A DNA stretch of 64,000 nt from assembly GCA_025716815.1 (NCBI GenBank), contig JAIXMN010000014.1, positions 248,001 to 312,000 on the forward strand, in the 5' to 3' direction. The notes under the pieces are model-generated. The model worked only from the letters and a program-made list of their open reading frames with translations, was not told the DNA's origin and made no database searches. The stretch's first letter is position 1. Every line of letters starts with the position of its first letter. The stretch comes from Dichotomocladium elegans. Lineage: Eukaryota > Mucoromycota > Mucoromycetes > Mucorales > Lichtheimiaceae. Shown piece after piece: positions 254-49,167 of this stretch. The position numbers and the translations under genes are program-made.

Positions 254-480
254 TTTTCTTCTCACTCTTCCTATTCCTTTCTTTCGCGCAATCCCTTCCC
301 ACCCCTTCTCGAACCCCACATAAGCGTGGCACACAATTACACACACTCACACTCACACACATATATATATATATATATATTTACATGCCGGACTAGCATA
401 TTGTATCACTAGAAAGAAAGACAAAATAACCGATAAAAAGCATTCTTCTGATATATCATCCCAAACAAAACGTCTCCTAT

Positions 481-768: not shown

Positions 769-1243
769 TATGTGTTGATAAAAAAGAAAGCGTAATGTGA
801 GAAAATGGAAAGTGGAGGTTTATCTTCTTTCGATGCCGGCTTTGGGTTTAAAAAAAAGATTCAAGAGGTGGAGTTTATAGCGAGAGCGCGCGCGCGCGTT
901 TTGTATTATGGCGTAAATCTGTAACTGTTCTTTCAAAGCATGATGCAGAAGAGTTATAAGATATAACACCACAAAATCGTTGAAAGCGTGGCGCGCGCAC
1001 GTGCGTGGGTATGCGTGTACGAATAAGTAAAAAGATCAATGGTTCGAGACATTTGGATGTTTCCATGGATTTCATAGACAATAAATAATGAAAAAAAGGA
1101 GAGGGTTGGAGAGAAAGAGAGACGCAAAGGCGTAAACCCTATGCAGCTGCAGCAAAAGACGAAACAAAACAACAAAAGAGGGCGAGGAGCGATATTAATT
1201 GCTGGGTTATTACATGTAAGGAGATTTCAAACCAGGTCAGGGA
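769..1243. other. Stretch without recognised gene
   Basis: The overlapping short ORFs here are low-complexity (GC/CG runs near 886-898 and 990-1005, GA-rich near 1100-1130). It probably holds the 5' region of the 481-768 ORF and the 3' UTR of the gene ending at 1244. Confidence 0.4.
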
Positions 1244-2319
1244 TTAGACCACGTCGGATCCTTCGAATTCAATCGGTGGTGTACGTGTCGATTGCGATAA
1301 TGGGTCGATAAGTTTCAGTTCGTCCTTGATAGCGTTGCGTGCAAGTCCATCGAGCTCCTTGGTGACCATTGCAAATATTTTCTATGGAATGCGGTGAATG
1401 GATCGGCTTCCCTCCTTCAAAAGTTGCAGATCCTATTTACCTTCACCTTGCTGTCGCACTTGAGTACCAGCTCAAAATACGCCTGAGTGCATCCTTCGGA
1501 TCCCGACAAGAGCTTTTGATACGCCTCGAGCAAAATATCCGTCAAGGTATAAAACGTTTCAAAATAGTCCAACTCAAAAGGCTGATCATAATACCGTAAT
1601 CGTCAAGTTTTCGTTTTCCCCTTCCTAATTTTTTTTTTGCACTTACTACATGTGGCACCGTCAAATGGGTATATTCAGCACCATCCACGTACATCCCGTC
1701 TTCCTTCCGACTTGCTTTTCGAAAGATGTTTTTCTTCAATTCCCCTTTTTTGTGAGTCTAGAGATCTCTCCTTATGGCCACGTGTATATATATATATATA
1801 TCTCTTTCTGTGTGTGTGTGTGTGTGTTTTCTTTACCACTTTTTGCTTCGAACGTTCATCCGTATGGCACTCAAACTCGGTTAGCAATTGTGCAAATGCT
1901 TTGACGTAGTCTGCTGCATTATTAATTTCAAGAATGGTGCCTATCGAAGTGCCGAGAATGTAGAAATTGCAGGTCCTAGCAAATACAATCTACTGTTGGT
2001 CATCGCCACACTCGTAAACGATGCAAGAAAAAAAAAAAGAGAAGAGGTGTCTCATTAGAGCTTGCCTGCGCTGCATTCTGTGATTCGTGTAGCAGGCATT
2101 GAGATCATTGCGTGTAAGAAGAATGGTGTTGAACCAGTGCGTGCTGCCTTCATGTGCTCGCCGAAGGTATTTGATAGTAGCGGTCCTTTTGGACACCAGC
2201 TCGGTGAGATATTCGGACAGGCTTGGCTGGTGGAGATGTTGCAGCTGTTGCTGATGTTGCGAGCTGCCGGTTGGGGAAGCAAGAGTCGTAGGATGGTAAA
2301 TTCCGGAGCTCACAGACAT
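1244..2319 (-). CDS. Conserved fungal protein of unknown function (5 exons)
   Basis: The model is complement(1244..1381, 1441..1581, 1647..1733, 1837..1975, 2066..2319), 252 residues; all phases agree. The N-terminus is Gln/His-rich and low complexity (residues 15-35), then comes a well-structured region (LTELVSKRTATIKYLRRAHEG near residues 40-60, WFNTILLTRNDL after it). The C-terminus is helical and ends in an acidic segment. The style is that of a conserved intracellular protein, but I cannot name the family. Intron 1 has a GC donor (GCAAGC on the minus strand at 2065 and below) instead of GT. An upstream in-frame Met at 2346 would add nine residues; I prefer 2319. The gene shares a divergent intergenic region with the one starting at 2915. 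Confidence 0.6.
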
Positions 2320-2914
2320 GATGAAGCTGGATGGAATGATGAGCACGCGAGAGAGAGAGAGAGAGAGAGAAAAAAAAAAGAGAAGGAGAGTGGATCCGCG
2401 ATGCTTCTATTGTTACACTGAACATATGGTGGCCCTCCCCCCTTTTTTCCATCCTTTCTTCTTTGATCCTCTCCCTTCAGGGCATCTATATTTTGGAAGG
2501 TAAAAAGTGTATGTGCAACCTGGACCATTACACGGTTTTCTTTAGCGTGGTCAGACCTGTTCCTGAATCGTGTCCCGAAAGCCCGTGGCTGCATTGTTTA
2601 TGGAGTGTGGCCGATGCATGATCTTTTGATGCCTTACGCCGAGCAAGGCCAAGATATCCTTACCATCGTTCTTCCAGAGGAAGCTTTTCTTTTTTTTTCT
2701 CCTAAATAAGTACTTTTTCTGACTTCTCGTCCAACGCATTATGAGTCCTTTGTGTTTCTGCGAGTTGCCAAGGGACAAGTGGTGCTTCGTCGTTTTTTTC
2801 CCTTTTACTTGAACCTTAATTGCCCTCACTTGCAACAGGTAAATAAAAAGTTCCTCTACTCGCGGTCCTCTTTCTTTTCTTCTATCATTCACCACAGACT
2901 TACCTCTCACCACA
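2320..2914. promoter_or_regulatory. Divergent intergenic region with a (GA)n tract
   Basis: This 0.6-kb region separates the starts of two divergent genes (minus start 2319, plus start 2915) and so probably holds both promoters. A (GA)n run followed by poly-A lies at about 2349-2385. I see no clear TATA box. Short ORFs here are read from simple sequence. Confidence 0.35.
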
Positions 2915-4041
2915 ATGACCGACCAAGACGCCGATACTCAGATCGAGACCTCCTCGAATGCCCTCATAAAGAGTAAATGATACCACCGCAACCACTATAC
3001 AGCACGGATTGCGGTCTCGCTAATCTTGACATGCGCCGGTCCTCATTGTTAGACATCATCGAAGACTTGTTTTCATATAGCTCTGTACGCTGGAAGCGGA
3101 TACTGGAGTACTATTACTTTGAAGACGCTGTCCTTACGTCACCTATTATGAGCACCGAAGGAATTGCAAATATTCAATAGTAAGCAAACGAGCATAGGCT
3201 GTAGTTTTTGACTATGCCTTTCTTTTACCTGACCGGGGACGACAAAATATCAAGTGTCTATACAGTTTGGCAAGCGTTGAATCGACAAGCACCCATCATT
3301 AATAACATTGTTTTTGACGGGTAAAGCGAGTCAAATATGCACAACCACACGCGGGTTCTCCATTCCTTTCTCTTTCTCTGGATGAGGAGTATATATAATA
3401 AACAAGGGAAGAGGCGTTCATCCTTAACGTCATCTCTCTGTTCTATAGCCGCACCGCAGTCATTCATCTGACGCAGAACTTCTCACCGTGTCTGTTCCCT
3501 GCCATAGTCAAGCTGCAAGTCCCAGCAATCACCACGTTGTATTTCCGCGAGACAGAGCGGGATAGTGGGCTGCTCAAAATTTATCGACAGGAAGACAGTT
3601 GGACGTTAGAAGGTGGACAAGATTGGGAGGTTGGAAGGGGAATACACGATGGACAAGCAGCTCAACAATGGGGAAATATCTTTCGATCCAGGTCTCATCC
3701 AATCAGTACCGTTGGTCTCCTTTTGGTATAATCATATCCTCCGAGTGATCATGGGAAAAATCGTTACTGCCACAGGTGATCTTCTCGACGCCGCCCTTCG
3801 TCATGCTCACCGAATGACGATGCGTGGCAGGGAAATACAGCTCCGAAGTAGGGACCTCGCCATTGAGAACATGGAGAAACTGGACGAGTACAGGGCAAGC
3901 CTTCATGAAAATTACCTGGAAGGTATCCGAGATTGGCGAGAGACGTATATCGACGAGGAAGATGATAGGGAACAAGATGTTGGTGACTTTCGATATCAGC
4001 CCATTAAAGAAAGTCGCAATGATACTCTGTATTATGATTAG
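2915..4041 (+). CDS. SigF-like NTF2-like domain protein
   Basis: The model is 2915..2972, 3053..3179, 3255..3320, 3449..3612, 3692..4041, giving 254 residues with consistent phases. After about 20 residues a fold typical of fungal NTF2/SigF-like proteins can be followed: an early helix, then LEYYYFEDAVLTSP, then WQALNRQAPIINNIVFDG, then beta strands RTAVIHLTQNFSP and TTLYFRE, and the segment SWTLEGLIQSVP. The C-terminal third is a charged helix (RHAHRMTMRG, EEDDRE). Proteins of this type are uncharacterised; the NTF2 fold usually binds small hydrophobic molecules or acts as a scaffold, so no reaction is claimed. The family call rests on pattern recognition alone. Confidence 0.55.
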
Positions 4042-29943: not shown

Positions 29944-30537
29944 TATATAAACAAATGCGGCTGCATTAGTTATTCGCTCCGCACTATATTTCTTATGGGA
30001 TCAGAGACAGATTGGAAACCTTAGGGCAGAGTATAGAACATGGATTCGTTATGTCTTTTACTACAAGACACGTGAGTTATGTGTCGAATTGACTACATTA
30101 AAGACATAAACCAGGCGTTCCGGTGTGAGATATCACACTTAGCCATGCGGAATCCTCCGCTCTACCTGCACCTGTTATTAAGTTTTCTGTCCCAGTCTTC
30201 TCAATGTATCACCTGTGTGTGAAATTGATGTAAGAGTACAAACAATTGATTCGAGGTTCTACAGTATGCTCATTCTACGGGAAAACTATTATACCTTTAC
30301 AGTGCTTAGCCCATATGACCTAAAATCGCACATGGAAATAGGACGCGCTTTCATGTTCTAGGATCGCACCGTTCCTAAAGATCTTGAGATATTGGAGTTA
30401 CCATATATCTCTTCCGGGCCTATCCGTACGCATGGCATGGTTTAACAAAAACAGAACCCTTGAAATGTGGTGATATTTCAGATGGGGAAATTCCCGCAGT
30501 ACAAATAAGTGGATGTTATGGGATCCATATATTTACA
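29944..30537. other. Intergenic up to the small palindrome
   Basis: About 0.6 kb of AT-rich sequence with no recognised gene. It is the left flank of the small palindrome and differs completely from the sequence flanking that palindrome on the right. Confidence 0.4.
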
Positions 30538-30961
30538 TATATATATATGGAATGAATAAAAACATAGGCATCACTTTCATTATTTAGAATTGGTCTTGTA
30601 GCCTCTCGTGGTGTCCCTGATCTGGATGTCGTTGTCAGTATATAAATCTACGATGAAAGGATAGGAACCAAAGCAGGTCCACATAAAAGATCCCGTGTAG
30701 CTTCTAAACTATCCCTGCCGTACGTATTTTTCAATAATAGAGTCCTTGCCAAGATATTTCCGCCTTTTCTCTTCCGCTACGTTTTCTTTTCTACAGTAAT
30801 TTAGTGCAAACAGCCATGTTTACATTTTTACCACCTTGTCAATTGTCCTAGTCCATGTCGTTGTTCTTGTGCGAAATGTAGAGAAAAAATCCTACATGTA
30901 TGCTGGTACAGTTAAAGCTACAAGTGAAGCATATCCTATGGATAAATGAGGAAACATGATA

Positions 30962-31458
30962 TCATTCCTCATCGTTGCTAGCTGGACGCCAAATTGGTCG
31001 ACACCATGAACTGTACGAAGGATGTTTGCTAAATGAAGACGTATGACCGCGGATATCTTTTTTATGATGTGTCTTATCGGAATCGGAATATAGCTCTTCG
31101 GTGTTTAAGCATATTTCCTGAGGAAAGGATATGGTCAGTACTGGATGATCAATATCAATCCACATAGAGTATGGCTTTTACCTTCATGATGAGAAGACCG
31201 CGAATCAATTCCTCGAGACATTGACCAAACGTACTCATTTTGATTGGCACTGAAAATTCTGTGACTCGCTGCAAAACGTAAAGGCCACTCGCCTCGAGCC
31301 ACATACAGTAAACATCGACTTGAAAAGCTGAAATGCGGACGTGAATAACTCAGTTTCAGCGTTTGGGAATGTGCTTACCCATGATTTGGAACAGACAAAT
31401 TTTGATATCTTTGACTTGCGGTCCTTTAAATTTCTTGACCATTTCATTAAGCTGGCTT
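30962..31458 (-). pseudogene. 3' part of the broken gene, copy that keeps the loop exon
   Basis: On the minus strand, the loop exon (31458-31379) ends ATCATGG at a GTAAGC donor. An intron ends CATTTCAG, then come exons mirroring 31509-31654 (FQVDVYCMWLEASGLYV, then QRVTEFSVPIKM) and 31719-31874 (ICLNTEELYSDSDKTHH), ending NDEE-stop at 30962. This is the natural gene order from the loop onward. The 5' exons are missing: where they should begin, the sequence turns back into the second arm. Family not named; see the 5' part at 39982-41546. Confidence 0.7.
31378..31458. repeat. Central loop of small palindrome, shared with the large one
   Basis: These 81 bases reappear, reverse-complemented and with one base difference (GCGGTCC here against GGGGTCC in the matching strand), as the loop of the large palindrome at 41465-41546. 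It is part of a coding exon (peptide MVKKFKG then VKDIKICLFQIM) of the gene broken between the two palindromes. Confidence 0.95.
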
Positions 31459-31874
31459 TAAGCACATTCCCAAACGCTGAAACTGAGTTATTCACGTCCG
31501 CATTTCAGCTTTTCAAGTCGATGTTTACTGTATGTGGCTCGAGGCGAGTGGCCTTTACGTTTTGCAGCGAGTCACAGAATTTTCAGTGCCAATCAAAATG
31601 AGTACGTTTGGTCAATGTCTCGAGGAATTGATTCGCGGTCTTCTCATCATGAAGGTAAAAGCCATACTCTATGTGGATTGATATTGATCATCCAGTACTG
31701 ACCATATCCTTTCCTCAGGAAATATGCTTAGACACCGAAGAGCTATATTCCGATTCCGATAAGACACATCATAAAAAAGATATCCGCGGTCATACGTCTT
31801 CATTTAGCAAACATCCTTCGTACAGTTCATGGTGTCGACCAATTTGGCGTCCAGCTAGCAACGATGAGGAATGA
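31459..31874 (+). pseudogene. 3' part of the broken gene, second copy without loop exon
   Basis: Mirror copy of the 3' exons on the plus strand: 31509..31654 and 31719..31874, phases 1 then 0, stop TGA at 31872. Here the loop lies in antisense orientation upstream, so no 5' exon can be joined and the copy is headless. It differs from the minus copy by an Asp for Asn in the last exon (CLDTEELY). Confidence 0.7.
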
Positions 31875-32298
31875 TATCATGTTTCCTCATTTATCCATAG
31901 GATATACTTCACTTGTAGCTTTAACTGTACCAGCATACATGTAGGATTTTCTCTACATTTCGCACAAGAACAACGACATGGACTAGGACAATTGACAAGG
32001 TGGTAAAAATGTAAACATGGCTGTTTGCACTAAATTACTGTAGAAAAGAAAACGTAGCGGAAGAGAAAAGGCGGAAATATCTTGGCAAGGACTCTATTAT
32101 TGAAAAATACGTACGGCAGGGATAGTTTAGAAGCTACACGGGATCTTTTATGTGGACCTGCTCTGGTTCCTATCCTTTCATCGTAGATTTATATACTGAC
32201 AACGACATCCAGATCAGGGACAACACGAGAGGCTACAAGACCAATTCTAAATAATGAAAGTGATGCCTATGTTTTTATTCATTCCATATATATATATA

Positions 32299-33160
32299 TA
32301 CACCATTTTTCAAAATCAAAGTCGCACCCTGCCAGTTTTGAAGTCGCAGGATCGCAAAAATACAAATCGCATTTTTGTCCGGAAATCTTTACGCGTGATG
32401 ACAAAGCAAAAGTCGCATACATACACGGAAAGATGTCGCAAATCCATCTCATCCTTATGACTCTTTCTCTTTATAAACTTTTACATTTTGAAATGAGCAA
32501 TCTATTATTTTACAACGATGGCCAAGGTCATGTCGCTGATGAGGAAATGTACTCACTTCAATCCGTTTGTTCTTACACTGAATATCTGTGTAGCATATCG
32601 TGCAAAGATAACTCTGAGTTTACTCTCACACACATTCCCAAGCGAAAGGATACATACATTCGGATGAAAGAAGCGGGGATCAAGGGCAGTTACACAGCAT
32701 ACACTGATCAAGGCAAGGTCAGATGTTTCAAACTGGTGTTTGAGGAGGTATTGAGTGCATCAGCTGCAGCAAAACAGCTAGGACTCCATGTTCGTTCAGC
32801 ACAGCGATGGGCATTACAGTAAGAAAAGGATCCTGACAGCATTTTAAGAAACGTAGAAGCAGAGGGCCGATCGTGTATTCTCAATGAAGAGCATTTATTG
32901 TTCTAGAATGCAATTGTCGCTAAAAAATAGCCGTACTCAAAAGCATCCTATATCGAGAAGAGTAAGTTTATTCTTGGAAAGAACAAAGAACTATCGGAGT
33001 GTGCTTGTCTCTGTCTCAATGAGCCATTTAGCCTGGGGATTGTACCTCCGAAGCTGGTTATCAAATGGAATAATGAAGTAATGGCTTTCAGGAGACTCCT
33101 GTGTTCTCATTGTAATATTCAGAGAAATTATTCATTATGTACCTACACTTTCTGAACGTA
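32299..33160 (+). pseudogene. Relic of a transposase with helix-turn-helix domain
   Basis: ORF 32433-32822 (129 codons) ends in a helix-turn-helix pattern: FEEVLSASAAAKQLGLHVRS, then AQRWALQ. This is the DNA-binding start of Tc1/IS630-type transposases. After the stop, another frame continues in family style (YEKDPDSILRNVEAEGRS then CILNEEHLLFLE), and later stops interrupt every frame before any catalytic DDE segment can be read. Just upstream (32318-32425) the motif GTCGCA/TCGCA recurs five times. The piece is therefore a decayed N-terminal part of a transposase. The exact superfamily is inferred from the HTH pattern only. Confidence 0.55.
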
Positions 33161-33355
33161 TGGATAAGGATGACAGCAGTGTCGTGTTTTGTTGTGTTGT
33201 AAGAGACTGAGAGAGTACGAAAAGAAGTACAATCTTCCTACACTACACAAGTGCCGGATATGTATCGAATTATTCTTGAGATGGTCTCTTGGAATTACTT
33301 GTTGGAATTGTTTGGGATTTCATTGTTGATTTCAGACCGCCCTCACGTCGATACA

Positions 33356-33525
33356 GTGGCCGCCCCTTATAGTGATACCCTCGGTTCCAGGAAATCGCAT
33401 CACTATAATGAATTATCACTATAATGAATTGGAATAAGCCCTACCTGGCAATTTTGTCCTTCATAAAGTGTATCGCTATAACGAATTATCATTATAATGA
33501 ATATCACTATAACGAGCGTCCACTG
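33356..33525. mobile_element. 170-bp MITE, pogo/Tc1-mariner-like, TA target duplication
   Basis: The ends are CAGTGGCCGCCCCTTATAGTG and its near inverted repeat ending CACTATAACGAGCGTCCACTG, about 22-26 bp with a few mismatches, flanked by TA on both sides (33354-33355, 33526-33527). Inside, the sub-repeat TCACTATAATGAATTA recurs several times in both senses. No coding capacity. TA duplications and CAGTGG ends are those of pogo/Tigger-type non-autonomous elements. It sits 240 bp upstream of the Fanzor-like gene. Confidence 0.8.
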
Positions 33526-33769
33526 TAAAACCTCATTAAAGAACCCAGTGGGAAAAAGAAAAACACTGTGGAGATGGATCATTGCTGACACTATAAATAG
33601 TGATGCTCAAGCAAGCTGTCCCTTTCCATTATCCACATACTAAACTAGAGCCCATTCAGCCTACAGAAATAACACAGCACCACATTTACGGTTGAAAGGT
33701 AATACGGCCGCTTTCATACTCGGCTCTGCGATACTAAGAAATAATATACCCTAGGTCTTCACCCACCAA

Positions 33770-35713
33770 ATGGCCCAACCCCACCGCCCCGTCATTCCCG
33801 AAGGCATGCGCACTGGCCACAGCATTGACCGCACTGGCCACAGCATTGACCGCACTGGCCGTATAATTGGGGTGAAATCGTCCATACGGGGCATCGGCTG
33901 GCGACAGCAGTACCGTGAACGTCTGTATCAGTTGGTTGACCTTGTCCACAACACCACAACACAGGCGTACGCATTCGCCAAATATATTTTCATCAACGAG
34001 GCAGCGCGCGATCCAACTTTTAACATCCAGGAAAACATCACGGAGAAGTTCTTTTCAGAAGTTTGGCTCTCCATGGTTAACAAAGCCGAACGCCGCACCC
34101 AAGGTGAAACAGCCCGCATCCGAGAACTAATTAACCGCCACAAGGATGAGTACCTTCGGATATCCGGATACGACAGGCCTGCGTTCCCTTATTCCCAGCA
34201 ATGTTCTTCTTACGAAGGCACCAAGATTTATACTGCTTACGTGAATAATGTCCACATGCGGTTCGGGCAACACCTTCGGCGTGTCATCAATGTCATCCTG
34301 AATCTTCGTCAGCGAAAAGCCGACCGCAAGCGAGAGTTAATCGCACAGGGCCTAAGCCCCGATCAAGTACGCCAGGACCTTTATGAAACCATCACCCGGC
34401 ATGCCACAGGATTCAAGCTAGCAATTGCCCGTCGAGGTGTTTTGAGGGAAGACATTAACGCCGAACCTGGATTTCTTCGGGAAGCATACGATATCCTACA
34501 ACCTGTCTTAAACGCTTACGCCCGAAACCACCAATTCCAACACCAGAGTATCTATTACGACGCCAAGGCCAATCCTGTTAAGCATTTCAACGCCTTCTTC
34601 CAGCTTGCACGCGTTTGTCAACAGAACGGAATACGCGGATTCAACTGTTTTCCACTTCGTCGCTCGTGGTCACCATGCTACATGGAGATCGATACGAAAA
34701 TCCTTTGCTACCATATCCTGGGCTGCAAAATGGAATCCCACACAAGCAATATGGAGTACTGGAGACGGGTTGTAAACCTGAAATCAAGAGCTTTCAAACC
34801 CCAAGAATCCGAGCTGCTCCAATTCCGTGGGACTATTCACACTGACGGCGTCGGTGTTACTGTGTTCAAGAAGACAAATGGCCTTCAATCGGGTTTCAGA
34901 CAGAGATTTGGCATCCAGAGCGAAGATATCGAATACGTCACCCCACAGATAGTCCGGAACGAAGACTATAGAGGACAATCGGTCACCATTGATCCTGGCA
35001 GAAGGGACCTGTTGTATTGCGTTCATGAGAACTCGTCACCCGACAACCACCAGACCTTCCGATATACAAAGCAGCTTCAAGATCATACACGGAAGACCAA
35101 ACGGTACCGCAGACTCCGAGAACGACTCAAGTTAGAGCGACCCGAGGTCGCGTTGGCTGAGCAGAATCTATCTCAATTTCAAAGTCATACGCTTTCCGTG
35201 CCCAACTACGACCGATACCTCGCCGCCAAGAATCGGGTCTCTGTAGTTCTCAAGTCTTTCTACGCGACAACCACTACGAACCACCCGAACCAACAATTTC
35301 TTTTTCGAAAACTTCGCCTGTCAGCGTTTTACAAGAAGCAGCAAGCAGATGAAAAGCTTCTCGACTCTTTGAATGCGAAGTTTGGCAGTAGATCCGTTTT
35401 CGTGATGGGAAATTGGTCTGCGCCGCATACAAGATATCACGAGCCTATCCGTGGTGTCGGCTTCCGGCGGCTGTTGAAGAAGAACAATTGCAATATTTAT
35501 TTGGTCGACGAGTACAAGACAAGCAAGTGCTGCCCTGTATGTGACAATGAAAGCCTTGCTACCTTTAAAATGGTTCCTAATCCACGCCCATATCGACGAC
35601 CCGACAATCCGCTCACGATCTGCCATGGCCTGCTACGGTATGAAGGACGGGCATGTTTTTATATTGCCCGCCTTCCATTAATCCAATCCAAATGCGATGT
35701 ACCTCCCTTTTGA
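33770..35713 (+). CDS. Fanzor-like (TnpB-related) nuclease, truncated at the palindrome edge
   Basis: One long ORF of 647 codons. The C-terminal half has the Fanzor/TnpB core: a RuvC-I strand TIDPGRRDLLYCVHE with its Asp, a RuvC-II region VFVMGNWSAPH (the frequent GDWS is GNWS here), and YLVDEYKTSKCCPVC, where Fanzor proteins place an alternative Glu and the first zinc-ribbon Cys pair. The second half of the ribbon reads CHGLLRYEGRAC, with Tyr where a Cys is expected. The ORF then runs into the arm of the large palindrome at 35656 and ends with about 19 foreign residues, so the final RuvC-III Asp is missing. Fanzors are eukaryotic RNA-guided DNA nucleases of transposons. The N-terminus has a tandem GHSIDRT repeat (24-bp unit at about 33815-33862). 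The copy is probably inactive. Confidence 0.8.
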   Translation: MAQPHRPVIPEGMRTGHSIDRTGHSIDRTGRIIGVKSSIRGIGWRQQYRERLYQLVDLVHNTTTQAYAFAKYIFINEAARDPTFNIQENITEKFFSEVWLSMVNKAERRTQGETARIRELINRHKDEYLRISGYDRPAFPYSQQCSSYEGTKIYTAYVNNVHMRFGQHLRRVINVILNLRQRKADRKRELIAQGLSPDQVRQDLYETITRHATGFKLAIARRGVLREDINAEPGFLREAYDILQPVLNAYARNHQFQHQSIYYDAKANPVKHFNAFFQLARVCQQNGIRGFNCFPLRRSWSPCYMEIDTKILCYHILGCKMESHTSNMEYWRRVVNLKSRAFKPQESELLQFRGTIHTDGVGVTVFKKTNGLQSGFRQRFGIQSEDIEYVTPQIVRNEDYRGQSVTIDPGRRDLLYCVHENSSPDNHQTFRYTKQLQDHTRKTKRYRRLRERLKLERPEVALAEQNLSQFQSHTLSVPNYDRYLAAKNRVSVVLKSFYATTTTNHPNQQFLFRKLRLSAFYKKQQADEKLLDSLNAKFGSRSVFVMGNWSAPHTRYHEPIRGVGFRRLLKKNNCNIYLVDEYKTSKCCPVCDNESLATFKMVPNPRPYRRPDNPLTICHGLLRYEGRACFYIARLPLIQSKCDVPPF

Positions 35714-37157
35714 TTGTACTAGCGAAAAAGTCGCGTGGTGCAATCATCCATCGGACCCCGCCAAACCCTTCTTCCCCACGTACTCGGCCCTCGTTGTCTT
35801 GTCTACCGCGTCCTCCCCTTCCCCCCCCCCACACACACACGTAAGAAAAATACGAAGAGGCATCTATGTGAACAACAGCTGTATTCCGTCATTCGTTATA
35901 CAGACCTCATTGCTTTCGCAATAATCTGCGCTTTATATCTCGTCCTCACTTCTTAAGACAACGCTAGCTCGGCCAGAATCGGGTTGACCTCTGCTATGTC
36001 TAACTCCGGCGCAATCCGAGGAAAGAATCCATGGTCAGCTGAGGGAGCACGGTCGTTCACTTTCAAAGACGTCAAAGCGGATTTCAGTCTACGAAAAATA
36101 AAAATCAAAGACCCTTATCGCTCGCTTTCCTGAAAAAGGAAATTTTTCGACGTGGTGATCATATGGCAGAGCCTTCGGATATGAGATAGAAGCGCTGGCT
36201 GCATCAATTGACGGACGTACCCTCTCGCTCGTTCTGTCTGTCTGTCTCTCCGCTGTCTATCTATGAATTGTGTGGAGGACATTGACTCTGTCAATTTCCT
36301 AGAAGTCCAAAGCCCCGACTACCATTAACTTCCAAATATTTACGCCCTGACCATGTTCCGGTGCCTGTGTTATAGTCTTGCTGATCAGACCCGGGCCTCG
36401 ACACATTAGGCCGGGGTGCCATAAAACCTGCTTATTATTAAGATTAAGTTCAGCATTGTTAGAGCATATCGCACAAATTTCCCGTTTGCAGTGTGCGGCT
36501 CATGTACGTGCGCATGAACTATAGCACTCCGAGAAAATATTCTGATATCGGGTAATACATGTCGATATTTTCAAGGAATACGATAGCGAGGACACACAGT
36601 ATTAGTTGAATGAAAAGGTCTCTGGTTCGCTCCACCACCCCCCCAAAAAAATGCAAGTGTTTGAACAGCAGAAAGTATCTCTTTTGACTTGCAGATATGT
36701 GCATGACAAATTCGCGATATATCCGGGCATTATCTTCGTTTTTTTATTGTTGTGCCTCAAAAGATCAAACTTCAAACCATGGCTATGCTCCCGTTTGATA
36801 AATTGTCTGCATTGGGGTATTCCAGGATCAATTATAGTACACAACTCTATGTTTGCATGTGCACTGTGCTTCATTCAAGCGAACAACATATGTGGTACAG
36901 AGTACTCGTCATCAGAACTCCTCGGATACCTTCCTCATTGCCTCGCGCATTCGCTTTTCCACATGGGTCCCGGGGGGGAGCGCTCCTGGAGCTTAGCTAC
37001 AAGTTTATCAGACACGTTTCCTTTCACTGTTCGTTTTTATGAGCAAAATCTCAAAATAATAAACTGGAAGGACGAACTACTAAGAGTTATATTCATCATT
37101 GGCCGCTTCAGAACAAGAAAGACACAAAAAAAAACCAATGAGGATTATTTCCAACCG

Positions 37158-38080
37158 CTATGAATAGATTAGACTTTCCAAAGGTCCGGAAAATCGCCCT
37201 CCACCCCCCATGACATCCTGGGAATGTACCATCCTATCACCCGATCCACTGAGTAAAGGCGGGAGGAAGGGGAAGCTAATTCTTCTTCCAGCATCTTGCG
37301 ATATTCTCCAACTAGCGCACCGATGACGCCAGCAGCGTCCTTTCCGCGGAAACATCCCCTCTTCCCGACATCCTCCTCATGGCTGATGAAATTATCTTCA
37401 AGTGTCCGCGCAAAACCATTTATCTCCTATTTGCAATATATGATAACCTCCGTCTCACCCCGTCGAGCCTATACTCTGACAAACGTTCAATGGGTCGCAT
37501 CTATATGTATCCTTTCCTCTGCGCACAATGGAATATATGTACTCACACCAGGCCTTCGTTTATTGCAGATAGGTCGGTAGTACGTATTTTCCGCGTCTCG
37601 TTACGGTAATAAAGCCGCAACCAGTGACAGTAGCCAAGGCGTTAGCCACGTACTGGAAAGATCATTTGCGTACAGTTATTACGCAATACAACAGACTGTA
37701 GTGGCCACAATAAGCCATCTGTTCCTTGCGCGGTAACAGTCTTATGCTGACTATTGTCTGTCCGTCTGACTTCAATATCTTTTTTATTCACTGCACATTG
37801 GGTTTATACCGTGGAGATGACCCACAGGTGTAATGCAGGATCTCCCTCCTTAACTTTCAAAGTTGTGAGCTCCTGGAACGAATACGGCTGCGTCAGAATC
37901 AACAAGAGAAAAAGACCCCACGGTCATCTTGCCATGTGTCCCACTTACCATTAAACTGAACGAGCTATACACGTTATCTTCTTTCGGCTCTCCATCGACA
38001 CAGCATCCAGGCAAAAGAACACGCCACGCGCTTATATAGAGGAGATAGGGCTCGATAGGTAAGGTGCCAAGTAGGAACAT
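37158..38080 (-). pseudogene. Degraded ORFs in left arm (mirrored at 44931-45842)
   Basis: On the minus strand here, equal to the plus strand of the right arm, a likely terminal exon (45595-45842 in the right arm) follows an acceptor CAAATAG and encodes GVIGALVGEYRKMLEEELAS, later YSVDRVIGWYIPRMSW, ending LWKV-stop. An upstream ORF (44931-45161) starts MFLLGTLPIEPYLLYIS. Fragments between them look like exons with short introns, but I could not join them into one frame. I recognise no family. It may be a decayed gene present in two mirror copies. Confidence 0.25.
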
Positions 38081-38445
38081 CGATATTTCACTGATGCTCT
38101 TTCTTTCTTACCCGGTCCTCAAACAGGCTGCCATCCGAATTCTGAAGGCTGTTTGGTTATGGTTCCAGTTTGTGCCTGTCAGAAACTTACAAAAAATATC
38201 AGATACAATTCCCTTCTATCCCGTTCGACGAATGAATTAATTAAAACATAAACCAAAAGTCAAAAAATAATTTTTACCCTTACCATTTCATTTACGGCGG
38301 GTGTCAATGAAAAGAGAAGACGGTGATAAAACCTGAATAAATGCAAAATTGCACCTCGCTCAAGCCGATTCTCGACCAACTTACTGTTTATACTGTGACC
38401 CACAACAGATCCGCTCAAGCCGACCATTGAAAAACAATCTCGAGT

Positions 38446-39200
38446 CATGGCAGAGGCAGCAGCAACACACGCTTTGCCGGCGTGAACAAGTGTCTAGCCC
38501 ATGTCGATGCCACAGTCTCTGTCTGTAGGCATCTGTTGAAGCTGCATAACCATCAGGGAATATAAACGCAAGAGAACGCATTGGTGGCCAGCACTCCCTC
38601 CACTCTAGGAAGAGACCTCACAGCTAGACCTGAGGACAAGCACAGAGAACTGCAACTGGGCCATGGCGTCTTCACATTCCGCACCAGCTTCCGCTCATTG
38701 TCGAACCGGAATGATCAAGGACATCTAGCCATATAAAAGAATCATTGGCATCGTTGGAGACATATATCCCAACACTGACGTACCTGCAATACAGAAAGCA
38801 TGCGCCTGAGTCTTGAATCGTGGCAGAGGCAGCAGCAACACACGCTTTGACGGCGTGAACAAGTGTCTAGCCCATGTCGATGCCACAGTCTCTGTCTGTA
38901 GGCATCTGTTGAAGCTGCATAACCATCAGGGAATATAAACGCAAGAGAACGCATTGGTGGCCAGCACTCCCTCCACTCTAGGAAGAGACCTCACAGCTAG
39001 ACCTGAGGACAAGCACAGAGAACTGCAACTGGGCCATGGCGTCTTCACATTCCGCACCAGCTTCCGTTCATTGTCGGACCGGGATGATCAAGGACACCTA
39101 GCCATATAAAAGAATCAGTGGCATCGTTGGAGACATATATCCCAACACCGACATACCTGCAATACAGAAAGCATGCGCCTGAGCCTTGAATCATGGAAGA
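38446..39200. repeat. 373-bp tandem duplication in left arm
   Basis: The block starting TGGCAGAGGCAGCAGCAAC at 38448 recurs at 38821 (two changes near its start), and a diverged third start (TGGAAGAGGCAACAGAAAC) follows at 39194, each 373 bp apart. The repeat contains the same short ORF twice (minus strand, RSLAFIFPDGYAASTDAYRQ). It is mirrored in the right arm at about 43811-44565. Confidence 0.85.
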
Positions 39201-39981
39201 GGCAACAGAAACGCACGCTTTGGGCGTCTCTATCTATGAGTGAGTGCGGGGCTGAAATTTTTACGAATTGCATTCAATTACGATTGCCCTTGTCCTTACA
39301 ACAGTGTCATATGCATGAATACCGTTCTATCCTAAAACCGGTATTCCAGGATTACGCGGGTCATCAGCTCTTCTAATGCCGTAATCACTATTATGAACGC
39401 CCTATATGGGGTTCATAATTATCTGAAGGACTCCTCTCAGTGCGTTGTTAACAGTCACAAGGGTAAATGATAAATATCTTCATCAACCTTGTAACTCGTC
39501 CATTGGCTAGGGAGGCCGCCTATATGCGATTTTCCCACATACACCCTCCCAAGCGACTGTTTCGAAAAGCATGTCTTATAGATAGGTCCGATGTCGACAG
39601 TTAATAAAAAACGCTTTTCCGAGTTTAGAAGAGCCATATTCTGTGTCTTCTCTTTCTTCTGAACACGATGGTCCAAAATATGTACACCTCTCTATTTAAA
39701 CAGTAAATCTTCGGTAGTATTGAACCAAAGAAAAAAATATCGGTGTCTCTAGTGGTAGCACAGAGAATGGGCGCCGCTCGAATTACTTGCATTGAACGAT
39801 TCGGCTTCTGAGCTATTTGTTATACAGTATAGCGCCATTAGTGTGCGGCTGTCTCGTGATGAAGATCAGAAATACCCAAACGAGGACATGGAAGGTGCCG
39901 CTCGATGCGAGGTTGAAAGCTGGCATGAGCAAAATACCATCTTGCTTTTAAGTCCGATTTCTGCTGCTCCCTTCTCTTTAG

Positions 39982-41546
39982 ACTGCGGTAATGATGGAAT
40001 ATGACACATGGTAAGAATAACAGATACTCCTGCATTTCACTTTGAACATTGATTTCAATTGCCTTATTGAAGGGATCCGGTGAAATGGCTGAAGGCTAAT
40101 TACCGTCACCAAAATGGCCTCCCTGAATTTTTCACCATTGCTAAAGTCGATCATGACCAAAGCGCCGCTGAGAATAGTTATAAGAATTGTGTCAACATTC
40201 TTCAGGACTCGGATGACCTTCTCGTTCAAGAGTGGGCTAGAGAAGTGATACGGAACAATTATATGGTAATGATCTAACATCAAATGACATATCTTCAATC
40301 ACAGCACTGACTCCATGATTGTCATTGTAGTGCCTCGCGTCACCCGATGTATCTTCGTTCTGGGCCGCACACTACACCATGAGAAATCTTGTCGATAACG
40401 TCGTCCGGGCTGGAAAACGAAAATGGACGGTAATTACCCAGGAATCATATAAACAAGATCAGTCGAAGTCAGCCGTAACAAAGCGCCAAGTACTTTCTCG
40501 ATCCACAACAGTGGACGAGCTTGAGAGCACCAATGTGACTGGGCTGTCATATCCGATTGGAACACATATCAAAATGTTAGCACTTGCCCAGATTGATCAC
40601 TTTGATCAGTTAGATGATAAAAGCAAGTATCACGTAATGTAAGTTAGCATATCTTAAGGCAGGATACCGCATGCCTTAATCCTCGCATTACTGTTCCAGT
40701 ATTGGAATGAATGGTGTGCTAGATCTGACCGACGAGTCAGAAGGGAGCCAGTTGGCCTCGCTGGACATAGCGCAGCGCGAGGAACTCAATAAGCTAAGAT
40801 GGGATATTCCGGCCAGTCCATGGATGATAGCACGCGATGTGGAGTTCTTCAATTATCTCAAAACTACAAAGGTAAAATCAAAAATTTTGGCGGTCATAAA
40901 TCAGACTTGCATACCATTCTCTTCCTAGGTGAAACGCAACTGGAAAGCTGCATTTGAGAAGACTGATGCTCGATTCCGAGACAGTGGGCACACAAGTGAC
41001 CGATCACGCATTTACCAGATCTGTCGACATTTGTACGTAATTTAAATCGAGAGCTGGGAATGAACCGGTAATTTTTTTTTCTCAACAGTCTGGAGCTGCA
41101 TTGCTTTGAGCCCCACCTTTTTTCGAAGGATATGGTGAAAAACATACTATCCGAGGCAGATTTCATCGTCAAAATCTGGGGCCGCCCCCTTGAGTTGCTT
41201 TTCCGCGGTTCTCCTCTGCTTACTCACTGGTAAGGAAAAGCGATTAATAACAAGAAGAGTAGATTCCAATTTTTATCGGTTAATGTGCACGCATCAGGGG
41301 TGATACGGTTTCAAGGAACACTGACAAGTTGCAACACAAGATGGATCTACGAATCATGTCCAACGAGTTTATTCACGACTATGATATTGGCAATGCTGAG
41401 TTTGCACGTTGCACTTCTGGGAAAAAATACTTTGTCGACAAAGCGAAGCTTGTTTCCAACGGTAAAAGCCAGCTTAATGAAATGGTCAAGAAATTTAAAG
41501 GACCCCAAGTCAAAGATATCAAAATTTGTCTGTTCCAAATCATGGG
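39982..41546 (+). pseudogene. 5' part of the broken lineage-specific gene, copy that keeps the loop exon
   Basis: Exons by splice motif and phase: 39982..40010, 40073..40265, 40331..40638, 40700..40871, 40929..41032, 41089..41229, 41298..41545. Readable segments include MMEYDTWDPVKWLKANYRHQ, GTHIKMLALAQIDHFDQL, MNGVLDLTDESEGSQLAS, FFNYLKTTK, LLFRGSPLLTHWGDTVSR and IHDYDIGNAEFARC. This matches, by memory of its layout, an expanded family of uncharacterised proteins in Mucorales; no function is known to me. The last exon runs through the loop to ATCATGG, where a GT donor and the 3' exons should follow. Instead the sequence turns back. Joined to the 3' exons of the small palindrome, the nine exons total 1,497 nt, a multiple of three, with every phase matching. 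The true start lies upstream and was not resolved (possibly near 39792). Confidence 0.65.
41465..41546. repeat. Central loop of large palindrome, shared with the small one
   Basis: 82 bases, identical except for one base to the reverse complement of 31378-31458. On the plus strand it reads in frame with the left-arm exons. The junction to the right arm shows a 2-base overlap (TA) between the natural continuation and the turned-back arm. Confidence 0.95.
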
Positions 41547-43030
41547 TACCGTTGGAAACAAGCTTCGCTTTGTCGACAAAGTATTTTTTCCCAGAAGTGC
41601 AACGTGCAAACTCAGCATTGCCAATATCATAGTCGTGAATAAACTCGTTGGACATGATTCGTAGATCCATCTTGTGTTGCAACTTGTCAGTGTTCCTTGA
41701 AACCGTATCACCCCTGATGCGTGCACATTAACCGATAAAAATTGGAATCTACTCTTCTTGTTATTAATCGCTTTTCCTTACCAGTGAGTAAGCAGAGGAG
41801 AACCGCGGAAAAGCAACTCAAGGGGGCGGCCCCAGATTTTGACGATGAAATCTGCCTCGGATAGTATGTTTTTCACCATATCCTTCGAAAAAAGGTGGGG
41901 CTCAAAGCAATGCAGCTCCAGACTGTTGAGAAAAAAAAATTACCGGTTCATTCCCAGCTCTCGATTTAAATTACGTACAAATGTCGACAGATCTGGTAAA
42001 TGCGTGATCGGTCACTTGTGTGCCCACTGTCTCGGAATCGAGCATCAGTCTTCTCAAATGCAGCTTTCCAGTTGCGTTTCACCTAGGAAGAGAATGGTAT
42101 GCAAGTCTGATTTATGACCGCCAAAATTTTTGATTTTACCTTTGTAGTTTTGAGATAATTGAAGAACTCCACATCGCGTGCTATCATCCATGGACTGGCC
42201 GGAATATCCCATCTTAGCTTATTGAGTTCCTCGCGCTGCGCTATGTCCAGCGAGGCCAACTGGCTCCCTTCTGACTCGTCGGTCAGATCTAGCACACCAT
42301 TCATTCCAATACTGGAACAGTAATGCGAGGATTAAGGCATGCGGTATCCTGCCTTAAGATATGCTAACTTACATTACGTGATACTTGCTTTTATCATCTA
42401 ACTGATCAAAGTGATCAATCTGGGCAAGTGCTAACATTTTGATATGTGTTCCAATCGGATATGACAGCCCAGTCACATTGGTGCTCTCAAGCTCGTCCAC
42501 TGTTGTGGATCGAGAAAGTACTTGGCGCTTTGTTACGGCTGACTTCGACTGATCTTGTTTATATGATTCCTGGGTAATTACCGTCCATTTTCGTTTTCCA
42601 GCCCGGACGACGTTATCGACAAGATTTCTCATGGTGTAGTGTGCGGCCCAGAACGAAGATACATCGGGTGACGCGAGGCACTACAATGACAATCATGGAG
42701 TCAGTGCTGTGATTGAAGATATGTCATTTGATGTTAGATCATTACCATATAATTGTTCCGTATCACTTCTCTAGCCCACTCTTGAACGAGAAGGTCATCC
42801 GAGTCCTGAAGAATGTTGACACAATTCTTATAACTATTCTCAGCGGCGCTTTGGTCATGATCGACTTTAGCAATGGTGAAAAATTCAGGGAGGCCATTTT
42901 GGTGACGGTAATTAGCCTTCAGCCATTTCACCGGATCCCTTCAATAAGGCAATTGAAATCAATGTTCAAAGTGAAATGCAGGAGTATCTGTTATTCTTAC
43001 CATGTGTCATATTCCATCATTACCGCAGTC
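41547..43030 (-). pseudogene. 5' part of the broken gene, mirror copy without loop exon
   Basis: Exact mirror of 39982-41464 on the minus strand. All exons read the same, but the loop is in the wrong orientation at its 3' side, so the chain continues into antisense sequence (reads THDLEQTNFDIFDLG). It is therefore tail-less. Confidence 0.65.
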
Positions 43031-46000
43031 TAAAGAGAAGGGAGCAGCAGAAATCGGACTTAAAAGCAAGATGGTATTTTGCTCATGCCAGCTTTCAACC
43101 TCGCATCGAGCGGCACCTTCCATGTCCTCGTTTGGGTATTTCTGATCTTCATCACGAGACAGCCGCACACTAATGGCGCTATACTGTATAACAAATAGCT
43201 CAGAAGCCGAATCGTTCAATGCAAGTAATTCGAGCGGCGCCCATTCTCTGTGCTACCACTAGAGACACCGATATTTTTTTCTTTGGTTCAATACTACCGA
43301 AGATTTACTGTTTAAATAGAGAGGTGTACATATTTTGGACCATCGTGTTCAGAAGAAAGAGAAGACACAGAATATGGCTCTTCTAAACTCGGAAAAGCGT
43401 TTTTTATTAACTGTCGACATCGGACCTATCTATAAGACATGCTTTTCGAAACAGTCGCTTGGGAGGGTGTATGTGGGAAAATCGCATATAGGCGGCCTCC
43501 CTAGCCAATGGACGAGTTACAAGGTTGATGAAGATATTTATCATTTACCCTTGTGACTGTTAACAACGCACTGAGAGGAGTCCTTCAGATAATTATGAAC
43601 CCCATATAGGGCGTTCATAATAGTGATTACGGCATTAGAAGAGCTGATGACCCGCGTAATCCTGGAATACCGGTTTTAGGATAGAACGGTATTCATGCAT
43701 ATGACACTGTTGTAAGGACAAGGGCAATCGTAATTGAATGCAATTCGTAAAAATTTCAGCCCCGCACTCACTCATAGATAGAGACGCCCAAAGCGTGCGT
43801 TTCTGTTGCCTCTTCCATGATTCAAGGCTCAGGCGCATGCTTTCTGTATTGCAGGTATGTCGGTGTTGGGATATATGTCTCCAACGATGCCACTGATTCT
43901 TTTATATGGCTAGGTGTCCTTGATCATCCCGGTCCGACAATGAACGGAAGCTGGTGCGGAATGTGAAGACGCCATGGCCCAGTTGCAGTTCTCTGTGCTT
44001 GTCCTCAGGTCTAGCTGTGAGGTCTCTTCCTAGAGTGGAGGGAGTGCTGGCCACCAATGCGTTCTCTTGCGTTTATATTCCCTGATGGTTATGCAGCTTC
44101 AACAGATGCCTACAGACAGAGACTGTGGCATCGACATGGGCTAGACACTTGTTCACGCCGTCAAAGCGTGTGTTGCTGCTGCCTCTGCCACGATTCAAGA
44201 CTCAGGCGCATGCTTTCTGTATTGCAGGTACGTCAGTGTTGGGATATATGTCTCCAACGATGCCAATGATTCTTTTATATGGCTAGATGTCCTTGATCAT
44301 TCCGGTTCGACAATGAGCGGAAGCTGGTGCGGAATGTGAAGACGCCATGGCCCAGTTGCAGTTCTCTGTGCTTGTCCTCAGGTCTAGCTGTGAGGTCTCT
44401 TCCTAGAGTGGAGGGAGTGCTGGCCACCAATGCGTTCTCTTGCGTTTATATTCCCTGATGGTTATGCAGCTTCAACAGATGCCTACAGACAGAGACTGTG
44501 GCATCGACATGGGCTAGACACTTGTTCACGCCGGCAAAGCGTGTGTTGCTGCTGCCTCTGCCATGACTCGAGATTGTTTTTCAATGGTCGGCTTGAGCGG
44601 ATCTGTTGTGGGTCACAGTATAAACAGTAAGTTGGTCGAGAATCGGCTTGAGCGAGGTGCAATTTTGCATTTATTCAGGTTTTATCACCGTCTTCTCTTT
44701 TCATTGACACCCGCCGTAAATGAAATGGTAAGGGTAAAAATTATTTTTTGACTTTTGGTTTATGTTTTAATTAATTCATTCGTCGAACGGGATAGAAGGG
44801 AATTGTATCTGATATTTTTTGTAAGTTTCTGACAGGCACAAACTGGAACCATAACCAAACAGCCTTCAGAATTCGGATGGCAGCCTGTTTGAGGACCGGG
44901 TAAGAAAGAAAGAGCATCAGTGAAATATCGATGTTCCTACTTGGCACCTTACCTATCGAGCCCTATCTCCTCTATATAAGCGCGTGGCGTGTTCTTTTGC
45001 CTGGATGCTGTGTCGATGGAGAGCCGAAAGAAGATAACGTGTATAGCTCGTTCAGTTTAATGGTAAGTGGGACACATGGCAAGATGACCGTGGGGTCTTT
45101 TTCTCTTGTTGATTCTGACGCAGCCGTATTCGTTCCAGGAGCTCACAACTTTGAAAGTTAAGGAGGGAGATCCTGCATTACACCTGTGGGTCATCTCCAC
45201 GGTATAAACCCAATGTGCAGTGAATAAAAAAGATATTGAAGTCAGACGGACAGACAATAGTCAGCATAAGACTGTTACCGCGCAAGGAACAGATGGCTTA
45301 TTGTGGCCACTACAGTCTGTTGTATTGCGTAATAACTGTACGCAAATGATCTTTCCAGTACGTGGCTAACGCCTTGGCTACTGTCACTGGTTGCGGCTTT
45401 ATTACCGTAACGAGACGCGGAAAATACGTACTACCGACCTATCTGCAATAAACGAAGGCCTGGTGTGAGTACATATATTCCATTGTGCGCAGAGGAAAGG
45501 ATACATATAGATGCGACCCATTGAACGTTTGTCAGAGTATAGGCTCGACGGGGTGAGACGGAGGTTATCATATATTGCAAATAGGAGATAAATGGTTTTG
45601 CGCGGACACTTGAAGATAATTTCATCAGCCATGAGGAGGATGTCGGGAAGAGGGGATGTTTCCGCGGAAAGGACGCTGCTGGCGTCATCGGTGCGCTAGT
45701 TGGAGAATATCGCAAGATGCTGGAAGAAGAATTAGCTTCCCCTTCCTCCCGCCTTTACTCAGTGGATCGGGTGATAGGATGGTACATTCCCAGGATGTCA
45801 TGGGGGGTGGAGGGCGATTTTCCGGACCTTTGGAAAGTCTAATCTATTCATAGCGGTTGGAAATAATCCTCATTGGTTTTTTTTTGTGTCTTTCTTGTTC
45901 TGAAGCGGCCAATGATGAATATAACTCTTAGTAGTTCGTCCTTCCAGTTTATTATTTTGAGATTTTGCTCATAAAAACGAACAGTGAAAGGAAACGTGTT

Positions 46001-47344
46001 TGATAAACTTGTAGCTAAGCTCCAGGAGCGCTCCCCCCGGGACCCATGTGGAAAAGCGAATGCGCGAGGCAATGAGGAAGGTATCCGAGGAGTTCTGATG
46101 ACGAGTACTCTGTACCACATATGTTGTTCGCTTGAATGAAGCACAGTGCACATGCAAACATAGAGTTGTGTACTATAATTGATCCTGGAATACCCCAATG
46201 CAGACAATTTATCAAACGGGAGCATAGCCATGGTTTGAAGTTTGATCTTTTGAGGCACAACAATAAAAAAACGAAGATAATGCCCGGATATATCGCGAAT
46301 TTGTCATGCACATATCTGCAAGTCAAAAGAGATACTTTCTGCTGTTCAAACACTTGCATTTTTTTGGGGGGGGTGGAGCGAACCAGAGACCTTTTCATTC
46401 AACTAATACTGTGTGTCCTCGCTATCGTATTCCTTGAAAATATCGACATGTATTACCCGATATCAGAATATTTTCTCGGAGTGCTATAGTTCATGCGCAC
46501 GTACATGAGCCGCACACTGCAAACGGGAAATTTGTGCGATATGCTCTAACAATGCTGAACTTAATCTTAATAATAAGCAGGTTTTATGGCACCCCGGCCT
46601 AATGTGTCGAGGCCCGGGTCTGATCAGCAAGACTATAACACAGGTACCGGAACATGGTCAGGGCGTAAATATTTGGAAGTTAATGGTAGTCGGGGCTTTG
46701 GACTTCTAGGAAATTGACAGAGTCAATGTCCTCCACACAATTCATAAATAGACAACGGAGAGACAGACAGACAGAACGAGCGAGAGGGTACGTCCGTCAA
46801 TTGATGCAGCCAGCGCTTCTATCTCATATCCGAAGGCTCTGCCATATGATCACCACGTCGAAAAATTTCCTTTTTCAGGAAAGCGAGCGATAAGGGTCTT
46901 TGATTTTATTTTTCGTAGACTGAAATCCGCTTTGACGTCTTTGAAAGTGAACGACCGTGCTCCCTCAGCTGACCATGGATTCTTTCCTCGGATTGCGCCG
47001 GAGTTAGACATAGCAGAGGTCAACCCGATTCTGGCCGAGCTAGCGTTGTCTTAAGAAGTGAGGACGAGATATAAAGCGCAGATTATTGCGAAAGCAATGA
47101 GGTCTGTATAACGAATGACGGAATACAGCTGTTGTTCACATAGATGCCTCTTCGTATTTTTCTTACGTATGTGTGTGGGGGGGGGGGAAGGGGAGGACGC
47201 GGTAGACAAGACAACGAGGGCCGAGTACGTGGGGAAGAAGGGTTTGGCGGGGTCCGATGGATGATTGCACCACGCGACTTTTTCGCTAGTACAATCAAAA
47301 GGGAGGTACATCGCATTTGGATTGGATTAATGGAAGGCGGGCAA

Positions 47345-47352
47345 TATAAAAA
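47345..47352 (+). promoter_or_regulatory. TATA-like box at the palindrome's right end
   Basis: TATAAAAA lies 12-19 bp before the ATG at 47364. It is the last sequence shared with the left arm (there at 35656-35663, reverse-complemented). If used for the 47364 ORF, the usual spacing would favour the downstream Met at 47427. Confidence 0.35.
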
Positions 47353-48360: not shown

Positions 48361-48627
48361 GGGAAGTGGCGTGCTTAGAGAACAGCAAAGAAATCCTGGG
48401 CGAAAGCAGCGCCAAGCGGTAACAAGAATGATTTGTCTTCCTAAATCGTGAAATTTTATTTTGGTGGGAGAAGCCGAGATACTCCGCCACCGAACGGTTT
48501 CGGTTCTTGGCATTTGCATACGGGCAGTACACATGTCATGTTCGCTTGTTATGCATTTTTGATATAAAAGCTAGCTGAGATCTTCCCATTTTCCGGATAC
48601 CTTAAGCCCCATTGGTAGATAACTGAA

Positions 48628-49167
48628 ATGTCTGATTATCCAACGTTTTCAAACAACCATCGTGTCATGTCCATCCCCAGTCTCATAGTAACCGAGTCCA
48701 CTCCTCCCGCCACGCCCGAATATCACCACCAGCCATACTCTCCATGCACTACTGTGGCGAGTGGCACATCATTTCAATTACCAAGCATCGTTGTTCAGGA
48801 CGACCCACTCGCTGATACGTTAATTTCCTGGCGCTCTCCAGTAGATCAGACTGCTGACGGCAGCAGCAATAATTACCAACAGCCCTTCATGTTGCAGCAG
48901 CAACACCACCACCAGCAAGAAGAACCCTCTGATCCCATCGTCGAAGAACGACGCCGACGCAATAAAATCGCCTCAGCCAAATACCGCGCGAAGCGCAACC
49001 AAGAGAATGAGCGCTTGCGCAAGTGGATAGACGATCTGCGCCAGCAGAACGCGATCCTTATTAGGGCGTTGAACGACGTATATTCCCAAGAGAAGAGCAC
49101 TGGCAACGTGGAAAAGGATCCGTCACATAGGCCCACTGCAACCAATGGTTATGCGCCACATCTATAG
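48628..49167 (+). CDS. bZIP transcription factor
   Basis: A single-exon ORF of 179 residues. The N-terminal half is a Pro/Ser/Gln/His-rich activation-type region (PPATPEYHHQPYSP; LQQQHHHQQEE). The basic region EERRRRNKIASAKYRAKRNQ has the N-x7-R signature and is followed by a leucine-zipper-like helix (ENERLRKWIDDLRQQNAILI, RALNDVY). The basic region resembles the Cys-3/Met28/Atf4-like group, known in fungi for sulfur or amino-acid control, but targets cannot be inferred. The protein would act in the nucleus as a homo- or heterodimer. Confidence 0.85.
   Translation: MSDYPTFSNNHRVMSIPSLIVTESTPPATPEYHHQPYSPCTTVASGTSFQLPSIVVQDDPLADTLISWRSPVDQTADGSSNNYQQPFMLQQQHHHQQEEPSDPIVEERRRRNKIASAKYRAKRNQENERLRKWIDDLRQQNAILIRALNDVYSQEKSTGNVEKDPSHRPTATNGYAPHL

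Follow-up and report, generated by a model that had tools for sequence, protein, structure and literature searches.

Here we describe two neighbouring palindromes in the mucoralean fungus Dichotomocladium elegans that have the same loop of about 82 nucleotides at their centres and between them hold the two parts of one broken gene, and we propose, with a probability of roughly 0.55, that both were produced when two copies of the gene's locus were cut 82 bases apart and rejoined in an inverted, reciprocal manner. The palindromes lie in a window of 64,000 nucleotides (positions 248001-312000 of the 981,398-bp contig C29, JAIXMN010000014.1, in an assembly of 39.4 Mb and 122 contigs), whose own numbering is used for coordinates below. 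It is likely that a single reciprocal event stands behind both of them. What can be read directly from the DNA comprises three new junctions, a loop common to both palindromes, a paralog in which the gene is contiguous, and a truncated transposon between the palindromes. The type of repair is known, and both halves of the exchange seem here to lie side by side in one chromosome. Studies of inverted duplications usually have one surviving product to work from, which makes it difficult to distinguish fold-back, U-type exchange and hairpin closure; at this locus both reciprocal joins are apparently kept, balanced to one nucleotide and with one copy marked by a transposon, so that the choice between routes becomes testable in relatives.

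Two palindromes and one broken gene

Self-BLAST of the window returned two inverted repeats, a small palindrome at 30534-32300 with arms of about 842 bp and a large one at 35656-47352 with arms of about 5.8 kb, each having a unique spacer of 81-82 bp at its centre and two copies of its arm. As the original prediction had stated, the two centres are alike, matching over 84 bases (31376-31459 and 41465-41548) in opposite orientation with a single mismatch. We refer to the 5' and 3' parts of the gene as A and B, to B, the loop and A in chromosome orientation as b, l and a, and to the transposon piece as M; the order along the chromosome is then left flank - b - l - b' - M - a' - l' - a - right flank. 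Specifically, the left small arm b (30534-31377, minus strand), which carries the gene's 3' part and continues the left flank, is followed by the first loop copy l (31378-31458, minus strand, 81-82 nt) and then by b' (31459-32300, plus strand), an inverted copy of B that ends in a TA tract at the left end of the transposon. Beyond M, an inverted copy of A, a' (35656-41464, plus strand), holds the gene's 5' part and leads through the second loop copy l' (41465-41546, plus strand, 82 nt) into a (41547-47352, minus strand), the A that continues into the right flank. Both loop copies form the end of exon 7. The outer arm borders continue into what looks like native flank, and both flanks run on past the palindromes, without the terminal deletion or telomere capture that characterises a fold-back inversion. 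In a DNA search of the assembly the loop was found nowhere beyond the two palindrome centres, a lack of matches that is not proof of rarity. Matches to the 6.5-kb left flank were the flank itself, at 100%, and paralog-like stretches, of which the long ones have 67-68% identity; with no second near-identical match, this part of the assembly is either haploid or collapsed.

The loop is bordered, in gene orientation, by the two sites Y (...CGGTA|AAAGCC...) and X (...CATGGG|TAAGCAC...). In the small palindrome the reverse complement of the loop is joined to B as GGCTTTAAGCAC at junction J1 (31458-31459), with an overlap of 1 nt (T), and in the large palindrome the loop is joined to the reverse complement of A as CATGGGTACCG at J3 (41546-41547), with an overlap of 2 nt (TA); the short turn-back overlaps of one and two bases that had been noted earlier are thus as described. 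A third junction, J2 (35655-35656), connects the truncated transposon to arm A with a 2-nt overlap (TT), and all three overlaps are of end-joining size. Each of the four ends created by cuts at X and Y is used once (XL-YL at J1, XR-YR at J3) and a single nucleotide is lost overall, which is the pattern of a balanced reciprocal rejoining, and both reciprocal joins of an inverted (U-type) exchange are present. Apart from J1, J2 and J3, the arrangement needs no new joint other than one element insertion. As a separate observation, both cut sites (41464/41465 and 31377/31378) fall within the pentamer GGTAA, which contains TA, and the neighbouring transposon stands at TA-rich sites; this may be chance.

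One spliced gene runs through these pieces, with its 5' exons in the large arms and its 3' exons in the small arms, in agreement with the original prediction. By eye, exons 1-7 are predicted on the plus strand at 39991-40010, 40073-40265, 40331-40638, 40700-40871, 40929-41032, 41089-41229 and 41298-41545, and exons 8-9 on the minus strand at 31327-31182 and 31117-30962, where the stop lies. The chain (20+193+308+172+104+141+248+146+156 = 1488 nt) keeps one frame to the stop with GT..AG borders; nine exons in one frame had been claimed before, at a length of 1497 nt that exceeds this chain by 9 nt, while the donor GT does fall exactly at the loop/B border (CATGG|GTAAGC), as had been proposed. 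Exon 7, which takes in the loop, and exon 8 are supported by a paralog at C112:219840-220440 (L044) in which the passage from exon 7 through the intron into exon 8 is unbroken. BLAST aligns the paralog with 67 residues of exon 7 at 40% identity, including the first 11 of the loop, and with a 57-residue stretch covering nearly all of exon 8 at 30% identity (joint E 1e-14); the paralog's exon is open through the remaining loop counterpart up to the GT in an alignment made by eye only. Because this passage is kept, A, the loop and B were once contiguous in the same order and orientation, which supports the ancestral A-loop-B gene that had been postulated.

A search of the same genome for an uninterrupted copy, suggested earlier as a check, yielded the unbroken passage of the C112 paralog and, by loop, A-exon and B-exon searches of the assembly, no intact A-loop-B; a DNA search with the whole A arm gave no intact copy either, a silence that counts little given that the arm itself was also unlisted. 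The exons of A and B were located in the palindrome arms only; beyond these, the A exons had just two weaker matches, both on C112, which at 40-45% identity are the only A-exon relatives found in the assembly. These two relatives of the broken gene, L044 and C112:236864-237272, are about 17 kb apart. Pfam searches of the exon pieces, one arm-B piece being in a frame other than the final choice, returned below-cut-off matches only. As far as the assembly searches show, no intact copy of the gene is left, and the two long inverted repeats, if transcribed, would give double-stranded RNA. RNA interference is active in mucoralean fungi, and double-stranded RNA from the arms could be linked to it.

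The small arms differ by four substitutions and one 2-base indel in about 840 bp, besides a further base where the outer end is ragged; these differences show no clear gradient. The large arms differ by five substitutions and four indels, all of them within the outer 1356 of 5809 bp, and are identical over the inner 4.45 kb; the chance of nine differences all falling in the outer part is (1356/5809)^9, or about 2e-6, for a border set after seeing the data. Such inner identity is what gene conversion spreading from the centre would leave, as would an assembler collapsing reads, and conversion between the arms may have evened out the inner part of the large palindrome after the event. Outside the homogenised part the substitution divergence is similar, at 4/838 in the small arms and 5/1356 in the outer large arms, the latter value leaning high with a 1356-bp border chosen after seeing where the differences end. 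All five large-arm substitutions (35838-37011 against 46000-47169) have G or C in the left arm and A or T in the right, possibly by chance.

A truncated Fanzor1 element between the palindromes

The original prediction left out what separates the palindromes, and with it the third junction. M (32301-35655, plus strand) is the left 3355 bp of a Fanzor1-bearing transposon of about 3.97 kb, of which the right ~617 bp are missing. Its 3'-truncated Fanzor1 reading frame, counted from stop to stop, occupies 33755-35655 on the plus strand and continues to 35713 within the arm. The protein encoded matches Fanzor 1 of Parasitella parasitica, its best solved relative, at E 1.1e-121, the Fanzor of Spizellomyces punctatus at E 1.8e-44 and Guillardia theta Fanzor1 at 7.9e-5; Pfam gave below-cut-off matches only, and the sole transposase-like trace on M is a sub-threshold helix-turn-helix match (E 0.091).

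The family is a high-copy one, with at least 22 other places covering M positions 41-3355 or more in one match at 93-98% identity, a lower bound, with 40 of 1210 candidates scored. The element's left end at b' has TATA in all 17 other copies printed and the same TATACACC in 15 of them, and all 17 extend rightward beyond the point at which M stops. Past that point the sequence shared with one reference copy (L024) runs for 615-618 bp in eight of nine copies compared and for 579 bp in the ninth. These multiple copies, with fixed ends and unrelated flanks, are those of a transposon, and since the left end is the element's own terminus and the right part is lost, M is a truncated element joined to arm A. 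At the place matching the b'/Fanzor border the left flank has no element, and the site, inspected by eye for the footprint of an excised element, is a TA tract that could mask one; with the element beside only one copy of b, the two b copies were either unequal at the start or became so. Private substitutions of the window copy number 13 in 3355 positions (0.39%), compared with 2-19 in the 17 other copies. Ten of these 13 are transversions (the highest share among the 17 others is 5/9), and a 21-bp insertion, missing from most of the 17, fits a 21-bp tandem repeat at 33809-33860.

We take the Fanzor element to be a passenger. That the transposon made the palindromes is not supported, as a palindrome of the small type stood to the left of none of 18 other element loci, whose left flanks (2611-4313 bp) are long enough to contain one and whose right flanks (1670-3959 bp) are too short for the large one. 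A copy on C79, followed over about 9.9 kb to its right and 9 kb to its left (L025, L026), had no large palindrome there and a single 65-bp inverted pair far to the left. Self-inverted repeats of other kinds occur at four of the 18 loci (L027, L029, L036 and L041).

A proposed reciprocal exchange and competing routes

In the exchange that we favour, the original locus would have held one gene of nine exons, encoded on the minus strand, in the order left flank - b - l - a - right flank. Two copies of it would have met, one cut at Y, the l/a border, and the other at X, the b/l border 82 bp away, and end joining of the four ends would have given b-l-b' from XL and YL and a'-l'-a from XR and YR. 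One of the copies would have carried the Fanzor1 transposon beside b, the third junction tying the truncated element to the outer end of a'. The outcome would amount to the original locus cut at Y, with the complete segment b'-M-a'-l' inserted in inverted orientation; this segment (3355+842+82+5809, about 10.1 kb) equals a ring b-l-a-M opened at X. Candidates for the second copy are a homolog, a sister chromatid, a tandem duplicate and a circle that was excised from the chromosome and closed at J2. That there was one event, the order of its steps, the nature of the second copy and the end-joining chemistry are what we infer from this arrangement. Because the transposon stands in just one of the small arms, two non-identical copies are favoured over a single staggered, hairpin-closed break, and unequal partners over sister chromatids.

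Several points weigh against such an exchange. A tandem pair on one chromosome rearranged by plain inversion would have loops in the same orientation, whereas those observed are opposite; simple inversion is thus rejected, and the tandem-pair version survives only if one loop was flipped afterwards. If the second copy was a circle or a homolog, two cuts a mere 82 bp from each other must be put down to coincidence, except where pairing of the copies or one shared lesion brought them about. That one gene once joined the left and right flanks is a reconstruction, no outgroup showing it, and the arm differences fit alleles present at birth as well as they fit later divergence.

Second in rank, and a tentative alternative, is the route of the original prediction, a single break with nicks 82 nt apart on opposite strands, the ends of which would have been closed as hairpins through the loop, copied into b-l-b' and a'-l'-a, and fused in cis. 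In a cousin of this scheme, failed fork fusion, the loop would be the last 82 bp left unreplicated between converging forks. A staggered break explains the offset best, needing no coincidence for the spacing of X and Y, and it accounts for one loop per palindrome, for the opposite loop orientation and for the near absence of loss. It does yield J1 and J3; inverted rejoining of two copies gives the same adjacencies, so that the proposed hairpin route is not established by them. Its arms, however, would have been equal at birth, and the Fanzor element in one small arm then calls for a later insertion and a later deletion making J2; furthermore, whole-arm palindromes would have been dicentric and acentric, requiring immediate fusion into one chromosome. 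The element's private substitutions (0.39%) are also not below the per-arm divergence of about 0.2% (half of 4/838 and of 5/1356), a weak hint that the insertion may not be younger than the palindromes, in a comparison that is spoiled if the private changes were inherited from an unsampled source copy. On these grounds together, exchange between two copies is placed first and the single staggered lesion second. If the single lesion were the true origin, the locus would be a natural record of a reaction that normally loses one product.

The odds that we assign to these readings are set by the shared, balanced loop, which also supports the common origin of the two palindromes put forward in the original prediction. 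Replication template switching, resembling microhomology-mediated break-induced replication, is improbable: a single polymerase path would have run along b-l, back along b', through the Fanzor element, and by a jump to a' and l' back to a. The overlaps at J1, J2 and J3, of 1-2 nt each, agree with such a path, which does not account for two turn-backs at one and the same pair of points, give or take a base or two. Still less credence goes to an artefact of assembly or library preparation, whether through mis-joins or through chimeric molecules formed by fold-back. Chimeras of this kind are known to arise, and 4.45 kb of inner identity with all nine differences in the outer 1356 bp is the pattern of read collapse in a long palindrome; random chimeras, on the other hand, would not reuse one loop balanced to one base, the arms do differ in their outer parts, and a third junction with a truncated element exists.

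Two independent fold-backs at one locus, already judged implausible in the original prediction, are the least credible route, for although fold-back with a unique spacer is documented for one such palindrome in PMC3907307 and PMC10622511, and the 2-nt overlap of J3 is the commonest value in the former (7 of 13 human fold-back junctions, with none shorter and a range of 2-8 bp), both loop ends would have to coincide within 1-2 nt in a locus of about 6.7 kb (rough odds of ~(3/6700)^2), and the 1-nt overlap of J1 is below both that human range and the 3-15 bp repeats cited for yeast palindrome centres in PMC10622511. Priming of a fold-back by strong inverted micro-repeats finds little support at the loop, where the overlaps are only 1 and 2 nt. 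Since a 2-nt overlap is ordinary for human fold-back junctions, short overlaps are a weak argument by themselves, and the shared loop is the stronger one.

Known systems and neighbouring features

In PMC3907307 the lack of a spacer is given as the key feature of U-type exchange between sister chromatids. The locus resembles it in the symmetric inverted joining of two copies, with products b-b' and a'-a, and differs in its offset cuts, in the same 82-bp spacer in both products and in the placement of both products in one chromosome. With the fold-back inversion or hairpin-capped chromosome (PMC10622511, PMC3907307) it has in common a palindrome with a unique spacer and a 2-nt overlap at one turn-back; it differs from that system in the overlap of only 1 nt at its other turn-back, in having one spacer for two palindromes and in the lack of a terminal deletion. 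It is also similar to the inverted triplication of origin-dependent inverted-repeat amplification (ODIRA), where an inverted segment lies between two palindromic junctions with the flanks undisturbed, and whose inverted circular intermediate, re-entering its own locus or a homolog, is akin to the ring version of our exchange (PMC10766186, PMC10766183). ODIRA, however, as outlined there, leaves three copies with junctions from two inverted repeats, whereas here there are two arms, one shared site and overlaps of 1-2 nt, and a third junction (Fanzor/A) is part of the inserted segment. The element between the palindromes is like the Fanzor1 elements in Mariner-type transposons (PMC3627910) in its Fanzor1 protein, TA-rich insertion sites and many copies, and unlike them in that the window copy lacks its right end; a place in the Mariner superfamily is possible. 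Precedents thus exist for palindromes with spacers, for U-type exchange, for hairpin-capped intermediates and for inverted circles re-entering their own locus (PMC10766186, PMC10766183, PMC10622511, PMC3907307). A limited search of titles and the beginnings of abstracts, which is not proof of absence, found no account of a spacer shared by two palindromes on one chromosome.

In the staggered-break inversions of Drosophila, offset cuts give inverted duplicated DNA at the breakpoints, and the duplicates stand at two far-apart inversion breakpoints. The locus shares the offset cuts with these inversions and differs in that its palindromes are 3.4 kb apart.

Neither Rfam, at gathering thresholds, nor tRNA scanning gave a match anywhere in the window. 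Both large arms contain a 373-bp tandem repeat of 2.1 copies (38445-39222 and 43789-44563). A further stretch of the large arms, 39305-39658, has 69-74% identity to a dispersed repeat found at 38 places among the matches listed, several of which are close to a contig start and possibly subtelomeric. Just to the right of the large palindrome lies a reading frame with a bZIP domain (48619-49164; bZIP_2, E 8.8e-07).

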